Positions 15,450 to 51,817 of a DNA stretch of 64,000 bases are shown piece by piece. The stretch covers positions 97,414 to 161,413 of the forward strand of contig NZ_JARGDO010000001.1 of NCBI RefSeq assembly GCF_029211185.1, given 5' to 3'. The notes below the pieces were generated by a model, which was not told the DNA's origin, made no database searches, and saw only the letters and a program-made list of their open reading frames with translations. A program made the translations under genes and the position numbers. The stretch comes from Tessaracoccus caeni. Its GTDB lineage: Bacteria; Actinomycetota; Actinomycetes; Propionibacteriales; Propionibacteriaceae. Within the stretch, counting starts at the first letter, position 1, and every line of letters starts with the position of its first letter.

Positions 15450-16301
15450 TTACTCGGCGGTGAAGGTCGTGCGGCCGCCGAGGCGACCGGCCAGTTCGTC
15501 GTCGATGCCGTCGGCGATGTGGGCGATCACGCGGAGTGCGTGCCGCAGATGGGCCGGGACGAAGGGGTTGGCCGGCACGGACAACTGCACGAAGACCCGG
15601 TCGCGGTGCAGCGCGAACCGGCCATAACGCGACTCGACGTTGAGGTCGTTCAGCACTTCACAGGCCCTCGAGCGGCCGGAGACATCATGCACCAAGGGCG
15701 AGAAGACAACGAGCTCCTGGCAATCGGGCGTGGAGCGCAGGAAGACGACGGTTGAGCCGACTCGGATCGCCACGTCGCCCTGCGCGTCCCTCAGCGCCGG
15801 ATAGCCCATGATGTCGGCGAGCTCGGCGTCGACCAAGCGGTCCAACTCCGCCTGGGTCTCGGGCATCACGCCGATGACGGTGCGCTCCTCCTCGGGGGTC
15901 GCCCAGTCGGCGTTGCCGCGCAGCACCTCGGCCAACTGATCAGGCTCCAGGAACACGGGATGCAGCACGCCCATCGGCCCGGCGAGGGTGCGCGTGGCCA
16001 TTGAGGCCAGCTCGGTGGTGTTGTCCTGATCGACCGTGGCGTGGAACAACGCGCAGTCGTCGTCTGGCGACCGCCAGCCCAGCACGTTCCAGGCCGCGGT
16101 GAGACCGCCTTCCAGCAGCGTCGCGAGCACCTTGCCGTCGCGGTAGGAGAACCGCACCCCGAGATCCGGCTTTCCGGTGACGGAGATCGTCAGGTCGGAG
16201 GTGTCGTCCATGACGGAGAGCACCTCGTCGAGGCGCGCGCTGAACTCCCGCCAGGCCAGTCGGTTGGTCTCGTCGAAATCGAAGTCGTGCCAGTCCTCCA
16301 C
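15450..16301 (-). CDS. YbjN/TY-Chap-type protein of unknown function
   Basis: A 283-residue cytosolic protein without membrane segments. Two alpha-beta domains are visible: an N-terminal half with TISVTGKPDLGVRFSY and DDCALFHATVDQ, and a C-terminal half with VFLRSTPDCQELVVFSPL, LNDLNVESRYGRFAL and RDRVFVQLSVPANPFVP, which resembles the YbjN/CesT-like chaperone fold of actinobacterial TY-Chap proteins. The GTG start at 16301 is preceded by TACGTT 6 nt away, consistent with a leaderless message. It sits between the two transporter operons; a functional link is not shown by sequence. Confidence 0.75.
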   Translation of the reverse strand: MEDWHDFDFDETNRLAWREFSARLDEVLSVMDDTSDLTISVTGKPDLGVRFSYRDGKVLATLLEGGLTAAWNVLGWRSPDDDCALFHATVDQDNTTELASMATRTLAGPMGVLHPVFLEPDQLAEVLRGNADWATPEEERTVIGVMPETQAELDRLVDAELADIMGYPALRDAQGDVAIRVGSTVVFLRSTPDCQELVVFSPLVHDVSGRSRACEVLNDLNVESRYGRFALHRDRVFVQLSVPANPFVPAHLRHALRVIAHIADGIDDELAGRLGGRTTFTAE

Positions 16302-16352: not shown

Positions 16353-17447
16353 CTACGGGGTGCGGAGCACAGTGACAGGGTCTCGGGTGGCGGCGTAGAG
16401 CGCGGGTGGGATGGTGCTGGCGATCGCGGCAAGCAGCGCGAGCACCGCGATAGCGACGACGAAACCGGCCGGCGGGACCGCGTTAAGACGTGTGGTGAGC
16501 ACCAGGCCGGCCGCCACCCCGAGTGCGGCGCCGAGCAGTGCTGGGCCGGTTGTCCGTGCGGTGACCAGCGCGACGATCGTCGCCCGGTTCGCGCCCAGGG
16601 CACGGCGTCGGCCGAGATCCTTGCGGCGCACCAGGACATCAGCGAGCACTACGATCGCGGTGAGCAGCCCGCCCGCGCTGAGCACGCCGATCAGCAGGGT
16701 GCGGTTGTAGCCGGCAAGGTCACCGACCACTTGGTTGCGCAGCTCCGCGACGCCGATGGGCGAGGTGAGCTGGACGTCCTCGATCCGGCTGGGCGCGATC
16801 AGCGCGAGCACCAGAGCCTGGGCGGCCGCCGCCTGATGCGGACTCCGCGTGATCACCGACAACGTGTCGGTATCAACCGCACCGGGGTGGTAGAGCACGC
16901 CGGCGTCGTAGTCACCGAAGGGTTCCCTGGCCTGGAAAGCGCCAACGACGGCGTACTCGCCGCCGTTGGATGTGGGCTCGGTGACCCACCCGTAGGGTTC
17001 GATCATCCCGAGTTGCTGCTGCGCCGTCGTCGATACGAGGGCCTCTCCCGGGTTCGGCCAGCGACCGGCGGTGAGCGTGACCGCATCGGCGAAGTCGCCG
17101 ACGATTCCCCACGCCGGCACCCGAGCGCCACCGCTGCCGACCACGCCATTGACCAGATCGATCGCGGCCAGCGTGCCGATCACGCGTTCAGCCACCGACA
17201 GGCCGGAGGCCTGTTCCACGATGCTGGGACCGATCAACGCCTTGCCTTGCGCGTCGCGCACCACCAGCAGCCGCGAGCCGGCCTGGTCCATGCGGGCGTT
17301 GAGCTGTTCTTCCGCTGCCGCGCTGCGCCCCACCGTCGCGAGCGTGGTGGCCACCATCACCGCAACCAGCAGGCTCACCAGAGCCGACGGAACTTTACTG
17401 GCCCACGCGGTAGCGGCCGCCTCGCGCAGCAGGACGAGCGGTCTCAC
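16353..17447 (-). CDS. FtsX/MacB-type ABC transporter permease
   Basis: 364 residues: one N-terminal transmembrane helix (about 20-40), a large extracytoplasmic domain, then three C-terminal helices around 250-345 with ADVLVRRKDLGRRRALGANR, the FtsX-type cytoplasmic loop. This is the MacB/LolC topology used by mechanotransmission transporters that work with periplasmic fusion proteins. ATG 17447 overlaps the ATPase stop (ATGA). The gene ends in ATRDPVTVLR, the usual end of this family. Forms a transporter with the ATPase and the peptidoglycan-binding fusion protein upstream. Confidence 0.88.
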   Translation of the reverse strand: MRPLVLLREAAATAWASKVPSALVSLLVAVMVATTLATVGRSAAAEEQLNARMDQAGSRLLVVRDAQGKALIGPSIVEQASGLSVAERVIGTLAAIDLVNGVVGSGGARVPAWGIVGDFADAVTLTAGRWPNPGEALVSTTAQQQLGMIEPYGWVTEPTSNGGEYAVVGAFQAREPFGDYDAGVLYHPGAVDTDTLSVITRSPHQAAAAQALVLALIAPSRIEDVQLTSPIGVAELRNQVVGDLAGYNRTLLIGVLSAGGLLTAIVVLADVLVRRKDLGRRRALGANRATIVALVTARTTGPALLGAALGVAAGLVLTTRLNAVPPAGFVVAIAVLALLAAIASTIPPALYAATRDPVTVLRTP

Positions 17448-18079
17448 AGCGCCAGCACCTCATCGGCGTGCTCGATCACGAACGGATCATGCGTGGCGAT
17501 CACCACCGTCCGCGATCCGCCCGTCGCCTCCGACAGCGCGCCAAGCACCTCCTCCGCGTTCGCACGGTCGAGGTTGCCGGTGGGCTCGTCGGCCAGCACC
17601 ACCGCCGGATCGGTGATCAACGCACGACACACCGCCACGCGCTGCGCCTGCCCACCGGAGATCTCGCCCGGCCGATGATCGGCGCGCGCCGCCACCCCCA
17701 TCTGATCCATCAACTCACGGGCGCGGCCCTCAATCTGCGCCGGGGTACCGCCGGCGTACAGCGCGGGCTCACGCACCGAATCGAGGATCGTCCTCGACGG
17801 ATCCAGCGCCGCGTCCTGAAATACGAACCCGATCCGGGTGGCCCGCAACCGGCTCCGCTGCCAATCGGGCAGCGCGCTCACCGGCTCACCGCCGAGCAGC
17901 ACCTGCCCCGCCGTCGGGGTGAGCATCAACCCCAGCACGTACAACAGCGTCGACTTTCCCCGCCCCGACGGCCCAGTGATCGCGGTCATCGCCCCCGGAC
18001 GAAACGCGTACTCCAGCCCGCCGAACAACTCCTCCGCGCCCTTGCGATAAGCAAACGACAGATCCTGGACCGCCAGCAT
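17444..18079 (-). CDS. MacB/LolD-type ABC transporter ATP-binding protein
   Basis: 211 residues. Walker A GPSGRGKST, Q-loop FVFQDAALDP, signature ISGGQAQRV, Walker B VVLADEPTGNLD, H-loop VVIATHDPFV. ADEPTGNLD is the hallmark of the MacB/LolD/FtsE group that pairs with FtsX-type permeases. ATG 18079 follows a purine-rich GGGGGG stretch. It lies 6 bp after the fusion-protein gene and overlaps the permease by 4 bp. Confidence 0.92.
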   Translation of the reverse strand: MLAVQDLSFAYRKGAEELFGGLEYAFRPGAMTAITGPSGRGKSTLLYVLGLMLTPTAGQVLLGGEPVSALPDWQRSRLRATRIGFVFQDAALDPSRTILDSVREPALYAGGTPAQIEGRARELMDQMGVAARADHRPGEISGGQAQRVAVCRALITDPAVVLADEPTGNLDRANAEEVLGALSEATGGSRTVVIATHDPFVIEHADEVLAL

Positions 18080-18085
18080 CGACGA

Positions 18086-19216
18086 TCACCCCCCTTCCTC
18101 GGACGCACCGGGCGAGGCCTCCGCGCCCGGGCTCTCAGCCGACGACGCGTCTTGCACGCCGACCTGCACCCGAACACCGGCCTCCAGGCCCTCGATCACC
18201 GCGATCCCCTGCCCGGACCCGAGCACAGTCACAGGCACCTCCCCCATCTCGGTCGTCACCATCGCCTGGCCCGACGGCGTGGTCCGCACCGCCGCCACCG
18301 GCACCACGACGCCCGTCACCTCGGGTATGACGATCACCTCGGAGCGCAGCGTCACCTGCTCGTCCAAAGGCAACGCACCACAGTCGTCGCCGCATACCTC
18401 GCCGCCCTCGGCACTGGCGAGATCGAAGACCATCTGTCCCGACTCATCCGAGCGCGACCCGAGGATCACTGCCTCCCACGCATGCTCCTCGAAGGAGACC
18501 TTGACCGTCGCCTCCGACGGCACCTGACGGGCCTGGTCCTGGGTGAGCGCCAGCACGAACTCGCGGGCACCAGTGGGGGCGCGCACCGCCTCTTCGCCAC
18601 CGGTCAGCACCCGGCCCGACGCGATCTCTTCACCCAAGCTGACCGTCACCGGCAGCTTCGGCAGCCCCACCAGCTCCCCCAGCACCACCACGCCGGACTG
18701 CGCGCGCCGCTCAGCCTTCTGCCACGCCTTCACGGCCGCCTCCGTGCGAGCGTCGAATATTCCGTCACTCTTACCAGAGAGGTGTCCCAGCTCCACGAGC
18801 AGTTCCTGCAGCGCTTTCACGTCGTCGCCGCGCACATCACGCTTCAGGTCGCGCCACAACGGCGTCTTCGCCTCCACCGCCCGCACCGGCACCTCTCCTA
18901 CCCGGTACAGCACATCGCCCAGGTCGACCTCACCGGCCCCAGTCTGCGTCACCACCCCGGACAAGCCATTGAACGCCACCGGCACCACCGGCTGACGCAG
19001 GGTCACCGAGTACTGCAACGAACGCCCCACCGAACCCTCGCTCGACGTGGCCCACACCGGCCCCGCAGCCGTCGGTGCATCCGTCGACGACGGCGCCAAC
19101 GCCACCCCGCCGGCCCACCACCCGAGTCCGCCGGCGATCACCACCAACAGCACCGTCACCACGATGCCGATCCCGCGACGTCGTTCGCTCCCCATCGGCT
19201 TCTCCACGGCGGCCAT
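18086..19216 (-). CDS. Membrane-fusion-type protein with peptidoglycan-binding domain
   Basis: 376 residues with an uncleaved N-terminal anchor (IGIVVTVLLVVIAGGLGWW), then a barrel/hairpin adaptor region, a peptidoglycan_binding_1 domain (DDVKALQELLVELGHLSG, DGIFDARTEAAVKAWQ), and C-terminal MacA/HlyD-like beta domains (VVVPVAAVRTTPSGQAMV). An acidic Ser/Pro tail ends the protein, and one Cys pair is present (EVCGDDCGA). Peptidoglycan-binding domains inserted in fusion proteins are typical of Gram-positive MacB-like exporters. ATG 19216 forms a TGATG overlap with the lipoprotein stop; GTG 19219 just before it is an equally possible start. Confidence 0.88.
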   Translation of the reverse strand: MAAVEKPMGSERRRGIGIVVTVLLVVIAGGLGWWAGGVALAPSSTDAPTAAGPVWATSSEGSVGRSLQYSVTLRQPVVPVAFNGLSGVVTQTGAGEVDLGDVLYRVGEVPVRAVEAKTPLWRDLKRDVRGDDVKALQELLVELGHLSGKSDGIFDARTEAAVKAWQKAERRAQSGVVVLGELVGLPKLPVTVSLGEEIASGRVLTGGEEAVRAPTGAREFVLALTQDQARQVPSEATVKVSFEEHAWEAVILGSRSDESGQMVFDLASAEGGEVCGDDCGALPLDEQVTLRSEVIVIPEVTGVVVPVAAVRTTPSGQAMVTTEMGEVPVTVLGSGQGIAVIEGLEAGVRVQVGVQDASSAESPGAEASPGASEEGG

Positions 19217-19938
19217 CACTGCGGAACGCTCGGGTAGAGGCCCTCAGGCTCGCGCGGGCACGCCTGATACACGCCGTCCCGGTACGCGGCGTCGGGACTC
19301 GCGTCCACGGAGGTATACGGACTCCACGCCGACTCCGACCCCAACGCCCACGCGTCGAGCCAGGTCTGCTCGCTCGGCGGCCCCGTCACCTGCACCCCCT
19401 GCTGCTCCAGGCACGGCATGCTCACCTCGACCCAATGCTGATACAACAGCTGCGCCGACTCCTCCGGCAGCGCCATCTGCTGGTACGGGTTGATCGGGTA
19501 CTGCATGTTGCACCGGTAGGCCGCGTAATTCAACGCCTCTCCCTGCTCCGGCGGCACATCGTCCACATTCAGCGAGCCGTCGGCAAATCCCTCGGCCGAG
19601 AAACCCGCCTCCGCCAGACAGCCGACGATCGCCTGAGCCCACTCGCTAGACGAGACCACCCGCACCATCGGCACATCGAGTTCACGATCCGACGCCAGCA
19701 GCCCCGCCTCCACCTTCTTCTCGGCCTGCTCACGCTCATCACGGCGCGCCCGCTCGACGAGATCGTCGAACGACGCACCCGCCATCGCCTCATCCCAGCT
19801 CTTCGGCAATCCTGAACGCTGCGAGGCACCGGCCGAACCCGACTCCGTCGGCGCGACACTCGGCGTATCCCCGGCAGGCGCACAGCCGACCAACGCGCAC
19901 GCCAACACGCCAACGAGAAACCTGCCACCACGAATCAC
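19216..19938 (-). CDS. Lipoprotein of unknown function
   Basis: About 240 residues. The frame opens at 20061, but I place the start at GTG 19938, where a lipoprotein signal begins (VIRGGRFLVGVLACALVGC, lipidated Cys at residue 20). The mature protein is acidic with a Ser/Thr/Pro linker, a helix rich in Glu/Arg/Lys, and several further Cys (IVGCLAEAG, YRCNMQYP, MPCLEQQG, QACPREP). No family recognised. It is coupled by TGATG to the membrane fusion protein, so it is probably an outer-face partner of the transporter, for example a ligand binder or an immunity-type lipoprotein (inference). Confidence 0.7.
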   Translation of the reverse strand: MIRGGRFLVGVLACALVGCAPAGDTPSVAPTESGSAGASQRSGLPKSWDEAMAGASFDDLVERARRDEREQAEKKVEAGLLASDRELDVPMVRVVSSSEWAQAIVGCLAEAGFSAEGFADGSLNVDDVPPEQGEALNYAAYRCNMQYPINPYQQMALPEESAQLLYQHWVEVSMPCLEQQGVQVTGPPSEQTWLDAWALGSESAWSPYTSVDASPDAAYRDGVYQACPREPEGLYPSVPQ

Positions 19939-20087
19939 AAGACGATCATCCCAAGAACGCAGATTCCCTGTCCCAGGAATGACGAACTGCAGCGAGCCCG
20001 AGCGAACCTCATCACCACAACCCATTTCAGCACGCACTTTCACAGGACCACCCGCAAGCATCAGAGACCTTCAATACGAACACGACG

Positions 20088-20126
20088 TTTGCCCCGCGAC
20101 GCCCACCAGGCGTCGCGGGGCAAACA
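20088..20126 (-). terminator. Strong hairpin between the secreted peptide gene and its transporter genes
   Basis: A perfect 16-bp stem (20088-20103 with 20111-20126), 7-nt loop. On the minus strand it is followed by cgtcgtgttc rather than a T-run. It can act as a partial terminator that keeps transporter expression below that of the secreted peptide gene. Confidence 0.75.
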
Positions 20127-20211
20127 GTCGTCCATAGACCACTCACAAGGACAGAGCCGACATCACTACACAGAGGCGAAGCCCTGCGGCAAGCAGAAGA
20201 ACCGCCCGAAG

Positions 20212-20550
20212 TCAGGATCCACAGACCTTTCCAGGCGGGCAGTAGCAGCCCGCAGTATGCGCAGAGAACGAACCCGCAGTCCAGGCCAACGCATTCACAT
20301 CTCCGGACTGATTGGACTTGCTCGTCGCATAAGTACCACCAGACGACTTCGCCCCACGGAAAACACCGTTGTAGTAGTGCTCGACAGTCTTTCCTGACGT
20401 CGTCGTCGTGCTCATATTCGCCGTCTTTCCGACCCCGCAGTCCACAGTTCGACTCCAAGAGTCGGCATTTGCAGGCAGCGCAGTTGCGAAAACAACAGCA
20501 CCGGCTGCTACAGTCGCACACAACCTTCGGAGCATCTTGTTGATGTACAT
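20212..20550 (-). CDS. Small secreted Cys-rich protein, bacteriocin-like
   Basis: 112 residues. A clear signal peptide (MYINKMLRRLCATVAAGAVV, cleavage near ANA-D) is followed by an 83-residue mature chain rich in Ser, Thr, Gly and Asn, with four Cys: one early (RTVDCGVG) and three in the tail GCYCPPGKVCGS. There are several Tyr and two Trp. GGAAAGGGGAAAG before the ATG is a strong ribosome-binding site. Size, export signal and position ahead of a peptidoglycan-binding MacB-like transporter and lipoprotein recall lactococcin 972-type or other Sec-dependent bacteriocin loci, but I cannot show homology. A strong hairpin separates it from the transporter genes. Confidence 0.75.
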   Translation of the reverse strand: MYINKMLRRLCATVAAGAVVFATALPANADSWSRTVDCGVGKTANMSTTTTSGKTVEHYYNGVFRGAKSSGGTYATSKSNQSGDVNALAWTAGSFSAHTAGCYCPPGKVCGS

Positions 20551-20836: not shown

Positions 20837-20974
20837 TTATTGACATCCTGGCCAGGTGGGGAAATAGCGGCATATGCTAGGTGGTGGTGGCGCAGGATCC
20901 GACATAGACGCGCTAACGACACCTTGACCACCCAGCAGCCCCAGCACCATCCACAGCGTTGCGATCACTTTCAT
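20837..20974 (-). CDS. Short secreted peptide precursor with a Cys-to-Cys core (45 codons)
   Basis: A 45-residue precursor: basic start and hydrophobic core MKVIATLWMVLGLLGG, cleavage expected near VVSA-S, then a mature segment of about 23 residues, SMSDPAPPPP followed by SICRYFPTWPGCQ. The two Cys frame an aromatic/Pro loop (CRYFPTWPGC), fit for a disulphide-closed ring. A weak GAAAG lies 10 nt before the ATG. It is divergent from the sensor kinase and upstream of the secreted Cys-rich gene on the same strand. Likely roles are a signal peptide for the kinase, or a second bioactive peptide; both are inference. It could be a chance ORF, but the signal-peptide layout argues against that. Confidence 0.55.
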   Translation of the reverse strand: MKVIATLWMVLGLLGGQGVVSASMSDPAPPPPSICRYFPTWPGCQ

Positions 20975-21101
20975 GAGGCGTAATCTTTCAGGAGAGTCAG
21001 AGGCTGCGCGAGGAGGTGCCCCGTCGTCTACCCGACCGGGCAGCGCTGCAGATGAAGAACTGTCCATACGGGCAGTCAGGTACGAGGAGGAGGCCCGAGG
21101 A

Positions 21102-22193
21102 GTGGATACAGCGGACAGCCAGATACGGCGTCAGCTCTCAGGGCGACTCGATGTGCTATTAGCAGTCACCGGCGCCGCACTTGCAACCCTGCTGAACCTC
21201 TCGCACGGCGAGATTGCCTCAGTTGCGCTCGACCTGGTTGCCTACACCGCAGCCGCCTGCATAGTGCGATGGCCTACCGGAGGGGGCATCGTCCTGGCGA
21301 GCACTCTCCTTCTCCTTGTGTTACTTCCGCCGGGCTGGCTCACGGTCGCGGAGTATGCGGCCTTAATTCCCGTGCTTGGAGCCGGCCTGCGTGGCGAACG
21401 ACGAAAGCGACTCTGGATGACCGTCCTCTACGGCGCGATTCTCAGCGCGGTGGTCGTACGGGAACTCCAGGGGAGCTCCCCGGGGCGTATCCTCGTGGGC
21501 TTGATGCTTTGGGGCGGCATGTTTGCCTTTATGTGGGTCATCGGCGACTTCTTCACGGCCTACCGACAAGCACAGGAGAAAGCCCGTGCTGCGGCTCTCC
21601 AGCAGCAACGCGTCGAGCTCGCCAGGGAACTGCACGACACCGTCGCGCGCGAACTCAGCAGGGCCTCTCTTCGAGCGCAAGCCATTCAGCAGGGCCACCC
21701 AACAGCAAATCTTGAGCCCATCCTGGCTGGCATCCAGCGCGCATCGGGCCAACTGCGATGGATGATGTCGCTTCTCCGGGAACCGGGTACCACCGCTCCT
21801 GGCCTTCCTACTACCACCGATGCGAAGGGGATCATCGACGAAGCGGAGCGAGCCTTGACCGAACAAGGGTTCACCGTCGCCAGCAGCTTCGACGGAGACC
21901 TGTCACGGATACCCACCGCCCTCCTACCGGTTCTCCGCTCAGCCGTCGGCGAAGCCTGCGCAAACATCGAGCGTCATGCCGATCCCGCTCGGCCATGTGC
22001 CATAGTGTTCAGCGTTGACCAGGACGGCATCGATGGCGTGTTCATCAACGGACTCAAGAAGTCTGCTGCTCCTGCCTCTGCGCGGGGCATGGGACTGGAT
22101 GGGTTGCAGGAGCGACTCAGCTTGGTCGGCGGAGAACTCAGCGTCGGAGTGAAAGGATCGCAGTGGACCACCAGGATCAGCATCCCGGCGTAA
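21102..22193 (+). CDS. NarL-type sensor histidine kinase
   Basis: A membrane sensor kinase of about 363 residues. Five to six transmembrane helices occupy residues 15-155, with little extracytoplasmic sequence. The HisKA_3 dimerisation domain has the phospho-acceptor His in ARELHDTVARE (His178 from this start), and the HATPase domain has GEACANIERHADP (N-box) and GMGLDGLQERL (G-box). GTG 21102 is chosen because GAGGAGGAGG lies 8 nt upstream; ATG 20973 opens the frame but has no ribosome-binding site and would add a polar tail. It overlaps the regulator gene by 31 bp. Divergent from the short peptide gene, which suggests peptide sensing (inference). Confidence 0.88.
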   Translation: MDTADSQIRRQLSGRLDVLLAVTGAALATLLNLSHGEIASVALDLVAYTAAACIVRWPTGGGIVLASTLLLLVLLPPGWLTVAEYAALIPVLGAGLRGERRKRLWMTVLYGAILSAVVVRELQGSSPGRILVGLMLWGGMFAFMWVIGDFFTAYRQAQEKARAAALQQQRVELARELHDTVARELSRASLRAQAIQQGHPTANLEPILAGIQRASGQLRWMMSLLREPGTTAPGLPTTTDAKGIIDEAERALTEQGFTVASSFDGDLSRIPTALLPVLRSAVGEACANIERHADPARPCAIVFSVDQDGIDGVFINGLKKSAAPASARGMGLDGLQERLSLVGGELSVGVKGSQWTTRISIPA

Positions 22194-22810
22194 GGCCTCC
22201 CATCACCGTCATGATCGTTGACGATGACCTCCTGGTTCGGACTATGGCGGCGATGCTGCTCGAACCACGCAACGATCTCCACATTCGCGGAACGTTCTCG
22301 AGTGGCCCCGAAGCGCTCGCCGCCGCCACCGACAACCCTCCCGACGTGATGGTTGTGGACATCTCAATGCCACACATGAGCGGAATCGAGCTCACTACAC
22401 AGGCACGCAAGCGGCTCCCCGAGACAAGGGTCTTGGCATATACCTCCCTGGCAGATCAGCAATCGGTGTCCGCGATGCTGCGCGCCGGCGCGTCCGGTGT
22501 CGTGTACAAGGAGGCGTCCGTCGGAGCGCTTGCAGATGCCATCGTGACGACGCACTCCGGCCTAGCCGTGTTATCCCCATGCTTCAGTAAGACGCTGCCC
22601 GTTCAGGAACCGAAGGAGCAGCTATCGGCCACGGAGTCTGAGTTGCTACGACTCGTGAGTCAAGGACTGACCAATGAGCAGATCGCACCCAAGGTGTGTT
22701 TGAGTGCCTCCACGGTGAAGTACCACCTCTCCAAGCTCTCCGAGAAACTCGGTGCTCGCAACCGGGTGGCACTTGCCGTCACCGCGGTTCGCATGGGTCT
22801 CGCCGACTAG
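22163..22810 (+). CDS. NarL/LuxR-type response regulator
   Basis: 215 residues. Receiver domain with VDDD acidic pocket, phospho-acceptor Asp66 in VVDISMP, Thr in AYTSLAD and Lys in VVYKEA; LuxR-type helix-turn-helix at the C-terminus (LSATESELLRLVSQGLTNEQ, LSASTVKYHLSKL). GTG 22163 is preceded by AAAGGA at 5-nt spacing and lies inside the end of the kinase gene, so the pair is translationally linked. Likely targets are the transporter and secreted-protein genes on the other strand (inference). Confidence 0.92.
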   Translation: MDHQDQHPGVRPPITVMIVDDDLLVRTMAAMLLEPRNDLHIRGTFSSGPEALAAATDNPPDVMVVDISMPHMSGIELTTQARKRLPETRVLAYTSLADQQSVSAMLRAGASGVVYKEASVGALADAIVTTHSGLAVLSPCFSKTLPVQEPKEQLSATESELLRLVSQGLTNEQIAPKVCLSASTVKYHLSKLSEKLGARNRVALAVTAVRMGLAD

Positions 22811-50560: not shown

Positions 50561-51817
50561 ATGAATATCGGCGCGGCCTTCCGTGGGTTCTTCGGGCTGG
50601 ACGACGACTACGTGCGGCCCGCACCGAAGAACCCGTGGCCGGCCGACATCCTGATCGCCGTCGTGCTGATGGTGGTCTCGGTGGCCACCCTTCTCCAGCT
50701 CCAGCAGATCCCCGAGGCCATCGAGTACGCCCCGCTAGGCCCCGGCCTTCTCGCCATCTTCACCGGAGGCGCCCTCATCGCGCTGCGGCGACGCTTCCCC
50801 ATCACGGTGCTCCTGCTCGGGAGCGGCGCCCACTTCATTCTGATCGGTGTACTGGTTCCGCTGGTGGCGAGCATCGCCGGCATGCAGGTGCTGTACTTCT
50901 TCGGCATCTACACAGCCATGGCCTATGCCCGCCGCCGCGACACCCTGATGCTGGCGACGGTCGCCGTGCTGGCCTCGATGGCGGTCTGGCTGCTCGTCTC
51001 CGACGCCTACACGCGCACGGTGCTGGGTGAGATTCCCGGCGGTTGGTACTACTTCGCCACCGTGACGCTCAACACGGCCTACTTCGGCGCGGCCTTGTTC
51101 CTGGGACGTCAGTCCTGGCAGCAGGCGAAATCCGAGGACGAGTTGCGCCGCTCGCGCGAGATGGTGCGCCTGCAGGGCGAGCAACTCGCGCACCAGGCGG
51201 TGCTGGCCGAGCGGCTGCGCATCGCGCGCGACCTGCACGACTCCGTCGCCCATCACATTTCCCTGATCGGTGTGCAGACCGCTGCGGCACGACGCGCGAT
51301 GGCCAGCCGTCCGGAACTGGCCTCCGAGGCGATGCAGGAGGTGGAGGAGCTGTCCCGGGGCGCCGTGCAGGAGCTGCGCGGCCTGCTGGGGTCGCTACGC
51401 GATGTCGGACCCGACGGCGAGAACGCCTCGCTGGGCAGTCTCGAACAGCTGTGCGCCGAGGCTGACGGTTCCGGCCTGCAGGTGCGCTACGACCTCGTCG
51501 GGGATCCTGCCTCGCTCGGCTCCTTGACGCCGACGCAGGCCAGCAGCCTGCTGCGCATCGCCCAGGAGGCGCTCACCAACGTGCGTCGCCATTCCACCGC
51601 CGACGAGGCCCGCGTGGTGCTTCGCATCAGTGAGGACACCGTCGAGCTCGAGGTGACCGACAACGGCATGCCGGTGCCCGGCACCACCGGCTCCGGGCTG
51701 GGCCACGTGGGCATGCGGGAGCGCATCTCCGCGCTCGGCGGCCAGCTGGACGTCGGCCCGCGAGCCACCCGGGGCTACCGGGTCCGCGCCTCCTTCCTTC
51801 GAAAGGCATCAGCATGA
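50561..51817 (+). CDS. NarL-type sensor histidine kinase
   Basis: 418 residues. Five or six transmembrane helices at residues 28-195, HisKA_3 domain with phospho-acceptor His226 in RDLHDSVAHHIS, HATPase with N-box QEALTNVRRHS and G-box GSGLGHVGMRERI. Overlaps the response regulator by 4 bp (ATGA). Together with the downstream ABC exporter genes it fits the common actinobacterial kinase-regulator-ABC exporter set for drug or envelope stress (inference). Confidence 0.93.
   Translation: MNIGAAFRGFFGLDDDYVRPAPKNPWPADILIAVVLMVVSVATLLQLQQIPEAIEYAPLGPGLLAIFTGGALIALRRRFPITVLLLGSGAHFILIGVLVPLVASIAGMQVLYFFGIYTAMAYARRRDTLMLATVAVLASMAVWLLVSDAYTRTVLGEIPGGWYYFATVTLNTAYFGAALFLGRQSWQQAKSEDELRRSREMVRLQGEQLAHQAVLAERLRIARDLHDSVAHHISLIGVQTAAARRAMASRPELASEAMQEVEELSRGAVQELRGLLGSLRDVGPDGENASLGSLEQLCAEADGSGLQVRYDLVGDPASLGSLTPTQASSLLRIAQEALTNVRRHSTADEARVVLRISEDTVELEVTDNGMPVPGTTGSGLGHVGMRERISALGGQLDVGPRATRGYRVRASFLRKASA

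Follow-up and report, generated by a model that had tools for sequence, protein, structure and literature searches.

A candidate ring-peptide signal gene beside a HisKA_3 sensor kinase in Tessaracoccus caeni

Peptide signals are best known from Firmicutes. The ComQXPA system of Bacillus pairs a multi-helix kinase of the HisKA_3 class, ComP, with ComA, a regulator of the LuxR/NarL type; in the Agr system (AgrBDCA) the peptide is sensed by the membrane part of its kinase. According to a ComQXPA census, ComX is prenylated by ComQ, its exit route from the cell is not known, and no ComQXPA system was found outside Firmicutes (PMC4008528). A second account describes Agr rings as thiolactones whose formation involves AgrB and whose receptor is a class-10 kinase (PMC3673130). 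For the streptococcal peptide GSP, a further report gives a double-glycine leader, exit by the gallocin ABC transporter, and a LytTR domain in the regulator BlpR (PMC8545106). A 2026 study of Micrococcus luteus competence reports no evidence for a signaling peptide or a two-component system (PMC12849477).

We analyzed a 64,000-nucleotide stretch of the Tessaracoccus caeni genome (hereafter, the window), in which a short, secreted-looking peptide is encoded beside a sensor kinase. With ComQXPA (ComX/ComP/ComA), this locus has in common a short precursor with a C-terminal Trp and the adjacency of membrane kinase and regulator (PMC4008528); with Agr, what would be a small macrocyclic peptide; with ComCDE/Blp (GSP-BlpHR), the combination of secreted peptide, kinase, and regulator, which in streptococci controls bacteriocin genes (PMC8545106); and with lactococcin 972-type cassettes, a secreted protein near a LolD/MacB-like ABC. 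An earlier note, made from the letters of the window, had described a 45-aa minus-strand ORF with a signal peptide and the ring CRYFPTWPGC, 127 bp from the kinase start. Both points were borne out: the frame from ATG 20974 to the stop at 20837 encodes MKVIATLWMVLGLLGGQGVVSASMSDPAPPPPSICRYFPTWPGCQ (45 aa), and the best kinase start is a GTG at 21102 behind GAGGAGG. Its statement that an ORF tool with a 60-codon limit would leave the frame unlisted was not, as an upstream in-frame ATG at 21067 gives a 76-aa version that such a tool would list, with another start. The features of the locus are given below.

16353..17447, minus strand: FtsX-type permease (Pfam)
17444..18079, minus strand: LolD/MacB-type ABC ATPase (Pfam, NCBIfam)
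18086..19219, minus strand: PG_binding_1 adaptor-like protein (Pfam)
19216..20061, minus strand: putative lipoprotein, part of the cargo cassette (Pfam gave no match at E<=0.1)
20212..20550, minus strand: secreted-looking cysteine protein of 112 aa, likely cargo (ORF list; no Pfam match at E<=0.1)
20837..20974, minus strand: ring-peptide gene, whose 45-aa product joins a hydrophobic leader to a C-terminal Cys-Cys ring (sequence, ORF list, profile matches)
20843..20872, minus strand: codons of the ring CRYFPTWPGC, C35 to C44 (sequence)
20975..21101, no strand: divergent region of 127 bp from peptide start to kinase start
20985..20989, minus strand: weak ribosome-site-like GAAAG, 11-15 nt 5' of the peptide ATG (putative role, from anti-SD pairing)
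21102..22193, plus strand: sensor histidine kinase, HisKA_3, with six predicted N-terminal helices (Pfam, fold prediction)
22163..22810, plus strand: response regulator with receiver and LuxR-type HTH (Pfam)

Judged by eye and by hydropathy, the leader of the window peptide appears to be a signal peptide. The GAAAG motif recurs at identical spacing in one relative (L076) and lies 2-3 nt nearer the start in three others (L069, L142, and L151). Between 20200 and 21200, neither sigma-70-like promoters nor terminators were found, and a search of 25 divergent intergenic regions for common operator dyads found none (the best was present in 5 loci, with shuffled maxima averaging 3.7 and reaching 6). 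A PDB sequence search with the peptide profile gave 0 matches at E<=1. It is conceivable that the frame is a spurious ORF whose resemblance to other peptides is due to chance, a reading that would fit the absence of a strong Shine-Dalgarno sequence and of any Pfam or NCBIfam family match. However, when the 1143 segments of the window were scored with a ring profile from which both host-genome rows had been omitted, this frame came first at 33.6 bits (E=2.6e-9), with a runner-up segment of 9.4 bits. Moreover, in 41 wider regions, about half of them chosen for a kinase or ring match and the rest for a ring match, 34 of 13778 frame segments reached at least 20 bits and none fell between 14 and 20. 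We consider a chance frame extremely improbable and regard it as refuted by conservation; the peptide gene belongs to a real, conserved, and previously unannotated gene family. Seven of the 41 regions had no ring above 14 bits (L066, L072, L073, L074, L079, L083, and L084), with ring-like ORFs present by a looser rule in L072, L073, and L074.

The extent of this family was analyzed across relatives of the host. With the window peptide alone as query, 146 relatives yielded mostly noise (41 genomes at E<=0.05), but the matches in G046 (E=0.0045) and G077 (E=0.023) adjoin those genomes' kinase matches, as does the host's own match on contig C2 (E=0.096). Similar short ORFs were present in a scripted scan of kinase-flanking DNA. 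The host's family, a grouping that we take to be GTDB Propionibacteriaceae, was represented by 198 genomes, of which a profile of 12 rows (A1) matched 74 at E<=0.1, host included; among the cleaner genomes only, 52 of 141 were matched at the same threshold. The earlier note had proposed looking for the short ORF beside the same kinase in related genomes, and the association holds from both sides. Starting from the peptide, a kinase lies within 1.5 kb at 28 of the 29 fetched best A1 loci (the window's own locus apart), and at 20 of 20 of those that are not rows of the profile, a count that takes in a few near-identical species pairs. Starting from the kinase, a ring of at least 28 bits was found in 17 of 20 same-order loci (L172-L190 and L220), 9 of these 17 not being profile rows; it was missing in L179, L190, and L220.

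The 34 related peptides have a common layout of hydrophobic leader, variable linker, and C-terminal ring. The two ring Cys are spaced by 8 residues in 32 of the 34 peptides and by 7 in the other 2, and the fifth ring position is Pro in all but 2. The ring is followed by 0-5 residues in 31 peptides and by 8, 14, and 15 in the other three. A typical ring reads C-D-x-[FLI]-P-x-[WFL]-P-G-C. Of the residues whose conservation the earlier note had proposed to check, the two Cys are conserved, together with the ring Pro and the hydrophobic leader, and Trp-Pro-Gly is common but not universal. With respect to the kinase, 26 peptide genes are divergent (L149 being counted here after trimming of a false kinase N-terminus), 5 are tandem upstream, 2 tandem downstream, and 1 lies at 3.6 kb. 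The window itself carries the two C-terminal Cys 7-8 residues apart, the hydrophobic leader, and the HisKA_3-type kinase within 1 kb by which the family is defined. Between the peptide genes of the related loci L098 and L112, nucleotide differences number 14, 5, and 19 at codon positions 1, 2, and 3, and 18 of 27 changed codons are nonsynonymous, a pattern that reads as coding, but fast-evolving outside the ring; two closer locus pairs have too few differences for codon bias to be judged.

We then turn to the kinase. Fold prediction on 20 family sequences (mean pLDDT 84.4) places N-terminal helices at 4-34, 38-53, 58-74, 82-96, 100-121, and the start of 127-198, with no extracellular domain, and we read these six predicted helices as putative membrane helices. 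The best Foldseek matches of the model are DesK kinase cores. In a tree of 111 kinases, one clade of 56 rows (support 95/95) has rings beside 48 of them, 8 rows being without a ring by the rule used, and a second clade of 37 rows, which holds other actinomycete and outlying kinases (support 89/77), has rings beside 0. Labels were set by hand for four rows, two long-tailed rings as present and two spurious ORFs as absent; the latter two, called by eye, sit in the 0/37 clade. The ring label requires 15 changes on the tree, 13 of them forced by starred branches, compared to a mean of 37.2 after shuffling (0 of 500 shuffles as low). The label is clustered on the kinase tree and of no one demonstrable origin; with 13-15 changes, neither a single origin nor strict coupling is demonstrated.

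Retention of the kinase without conservation of the peptide, named in the earlier note as evidence against its proposal, was encountered once. The nearest kinase relative, from Micropruina sp. KQZ13P-5 (L066/L179; 46-47% identity), keeps kinase and regulator, but the ORF in the peptide's place is merely signal-like and carries no ring; a different kinase of that genome does have a ring next to it (L081). In the NCBI taxonomy, Micropruina stands in Nocardioidaceae, order Propionibacteriales. For a second HisKA_3-type kinase of the window (50819-51781), which is not part of the ring clade, the rule used gave no ring ORF in the vicinity.

To more quantitatively relate ring and kinase, we compared their distances over 43 kinase/ring pairs. 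These exclude three loci whose rings depart from the 7-8 spacing (L073, L074, and L272), L220, the second L077 kinase, and all rows beyond the family clade. Ring distance correlated with sensor-domain distance after removal of the catalytic core (partial r 0.43 linear and 0.39 by rank, neither value being reached in 1000 permutations), whereas ring versus core, given the sensor, gave -0.03 linear and 0.02 by rank. On these distances, ring divergence follows the predicted membrane domain of the kinase and not its core. For the pre-ring part (leader plus linker) versus sensor, the values were 0.21 and 0.16 (0 and 9 of 1000 permutations); since this part also co-varies, if more weakly, some of the signal may reflect relatedness or the different degrees to which fast and slow domains are saturated. 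The co-variation is what a ligand and its receptor would be expected to leave, with relatedness and unequal domain saturation as partial alternatives. Fixed kinase pairing and co-variation would, however, fit any extracellular binding partner, including a small accessory or inhibitor subunit that is secreted and controls the kinase of its own cell rather than carrying a signal between cells. Such a subunit seems distinctly unlikely to us, as the cleavable-looking leader, the variable linker, and the several rings per genome look more like released signals. What comparison of sequences establishes is the peptide family, its kinase linkage, and its co-variation with the sensor domain.

The host genome offers a view of several rings side by side. 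Five ring modules were found, at C11:118253 (the window), C2:89477, C77:72518, C11:232250, and on C44 (L253 5402-5542), and their rings are all different: CRYFPTWPGC, CDLFPRFPGC, CDMAPWLPGC, CDRWWILPWC, and CDWWQFPWC. The C44 ring, at 7.4 bits only, was accepted on position and anatomy. A sixth candidate, on contig C22, was rejected for want of a signal peptide. In three of the five modules (window, C2, and C44), the ring gene is followed on the same strand by genes for a secreted-looking protein (112, 135, or 160 aa), a lipoprotein-like and an adaptor-like protein, and the ATPase and FtsX permease of an ABC system; the genes for kinase and regulator diverge from the ring gene. This layout is common to the three cassettes, but not all of the proteins are homologs of one another. 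Peptidase inhibitor family I36, with a cut-off of 21.1 bits, is resembled by the secreted proteins of C2 (22.1 bits) and C44 (19 bits); the window's secreted protein matches nothing, and Pfam gave no match for the C44 adaptor. A profile of the 112-aa protein had only 2 matches among PDB sequences (E 0.48 and 0.63), and its single-sequence fold reached a mean pLDDT of 41.6. In G029, FtsX, ATPase, and adaptor are 60-79% identical to those of the window, a tandem ring-kinase-regulator set is present, and so is a 112-aa-type protein (E=0.005). Just 3' of the window cassette, on the same strand, lies a gene for a TY-Chap1/TY-Chap3 (YbjN-like) chaperone protein (15450-16301).

A secreted ring peptide encoded beside an export-type ABC cassette, as in three of the five host modules, that of the window among them, could also be an antimicrobial, i.e., a small bacteriocin, with the kinase sensing the peptide or the damage it causes and providing immunity via the ABC cassette. 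The neighbors of the other rings weigh against this. A kinase lies within 7.5 kb in 34 of 34 ring loci, as opposed to an ABC ATPase cluster in 13 of 34, which is an undercount (the cluster of L065, identified separately, was missed here); Tad pilus clusters are found in 4 of 34. Conversely, the window-type cassette occurs with neither kinase nor ring in 11-15.5 kb stretches from G016, G036, G008, G045, and G072. The four loci in which the module borders Tad pilus genes, as grouped by sequence cluster, are L141, L143, L147, and L150, with SAF (SAF/CpaB), T2SSE, T2SSF, and TadE as the Pfam names in L141. We regard the bacteriocin reading as unlikely: peptide and kinase are the constant pair, which favors a signal over a toxin. 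The earlier note had left it undecided whether the ring is an autoinducer or a second active peptide, and the former is preferred because the kinase is constant and the neighboring cargo changes.

Several further observations concern the cargo. Related, large secreted-looking proteins of 701-857 aa adjoin the modules at L068:6735-9182, L135:8772-11345, and L139:6855-8960, with no or sub-threshold Pfam matches. Secreted-looking proteins of ~110 aa form a family (L258, L259, L261, L264, and window 16353-20550), several with CYCPPGxxCG-like tails, that travels with lipoprotein, adaptor, LolD-like ATPase, and FtsX permease, whether the signaling module is present or absent. In the G008 cassette (L260:2545-5346), adaptor and permease match in several frames, and this copy looks broken. 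The Tad pilus neighbors of the ring module suggest a possible link to adhesion or DNA uptake.

Beyond the host's family, a 26-row profile found nothing strong at E<=0.01. Besides the host, 13 of 394 genomes of the class were matched (E 3e-4 to 0.01; ~4 expected by chance), as were 6 of 296 genomes of the phylum (same E range; ~3 expected), and since these numbers somewhat exceed the chance expectation, a few matches could be real. In 31 loci of kinase relatives outside Propionibacteriales, 14 leader-plus-ring ORFs were found in 48.8 kb upstream of the kinase, compared to 7 in the remaining 201.4 kb. On inspection by eye, 11 of the upstream ORFs look real; they come from Rothia, Mobilicoccus, Kocuria, and Brachybacterium, and several of the Rothia loci are close relatives of one another. 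Of the 7 ORFs elsewhere, 3 look real, all from Actinomyces and lying downstream of the kinase. In these five genera, short, secreted-looking peptides with a looser two-Cys C-terminal ring, mostly on the kinase strand and just upstream, were seen at L199, L200, L198, L201, L203, L210, L211, L213, L215, L217, L194, L191, L196, and L221. Among the 29 top kinase loci from other genomes of the class, there was one leader-plus-ring ORF, which looks spurious. This locus survey indicates that most sampled HisKA_3 kinases are without rings and that some other lineages have them.

Together, these results lead us to think it probable that the peptide is a Sec-exported, disulfide-ring pheromone that is sensed by the adjacent kinase, with its six predicted membrane helices, and switches variable cargo via a LuxR-type regulator. 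Counting against this reading are the ringless kinase loci (L066/L179, L190, L220, and 8 rows of the ring clade) and the negative searches for a common operator and a sigma-70-like promoter. The 45-aa peptide would be the dedicated extracellular signal of that kinase. It would leave the cell by the Sec route and be cut by signal peptidase I after about residue 22 (VSA/S, by eye), its two Cys then being oxidized outside the cell to give a 10-residue ring. The multi-helix membrane domain of the divergently encoded HisKA_3 kinase would bind and sense this ring, and the kinase would phosphorylate the LuxR-type regulator, which in turn may drive the peptide gene and the cassette next to it, with its genes for the 112-aa protein, the lipoprotein, the adaptor, the ABC ATPase, and the permease. 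Such switching would probably be density-dependent. With a somewhat better than even chance, in our estimate, the family represents a class of peptide quorum sensing in Actinomycetes, made up of ribosomal, Sec-exported disulfide-ring pheromones with no dedicated modifying or exporting enzyme, each with its own HisKA_3 kinase. A single cell, such as that of the host, might run five channels, and the modules would be portable onto secreted-protein/ABC cassettes, Tad pili (possibly for DNA uptake), and large secreted proteins. The recipe of Cys, 3 residues, Pro, 4 residues, and Cys, preceded by a hydrophobic leader and with a HisKA_3 kinase as neighbor, yields testable ligand-receptor pairs in tens of genomes, and the question of actinobacterial peptide signals becomes directly testable with 10-residue synthetic peptides.

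How does this locus differ from the systems it resembles? A membrane HisKA_3 kinase with a LuxR-type regulator (Pfam, fold prediction) is a feature it shares with ComQXPA, but, unlike ComQXPA, it has a Sec-like leader and a two-Cys ring and no ComQ-like neighbor, none of the 10 scanned window ORFs between 14746 and 22810 matching a ComQ-type polyprenyl synthetase by Pfam at E<=0.1. In contrast to Agr, the kinase is of the HisKA_3 type and no AgrB was found in the host genome (PF04647 search of 82 contigs; 0 matches at E<=0.01); the two conserved Cys suggest a disulfide rather than an Agr-type thiolactone or lactone. Unlike ComCDE/Blp, the peptide has a Sec-like leader; this leader contains GG, which is not conserved in the 26-row alignment, the C39 domain is absent from the window ABC (Pfam), and the genome's one C39 peptidase match is on another contig (C66). 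As to lactococcin 972-type cassettes, the window ATPase scores 154 bits to TIGR03608, below the cut-off of 254.85 bits, and no Pfam model, that of the bacteriocin included, is matched by the 112-aa protein at E<=0.1. No description of the peptide family was found in open-licence PMC papers, as far as titles and the starts of abstracts go. In the literature searched, we did not encounter this export route together with such a ring, this class of kinase, and this lineage, and we therefore see in the family a variant of known peptide quorum sensing.
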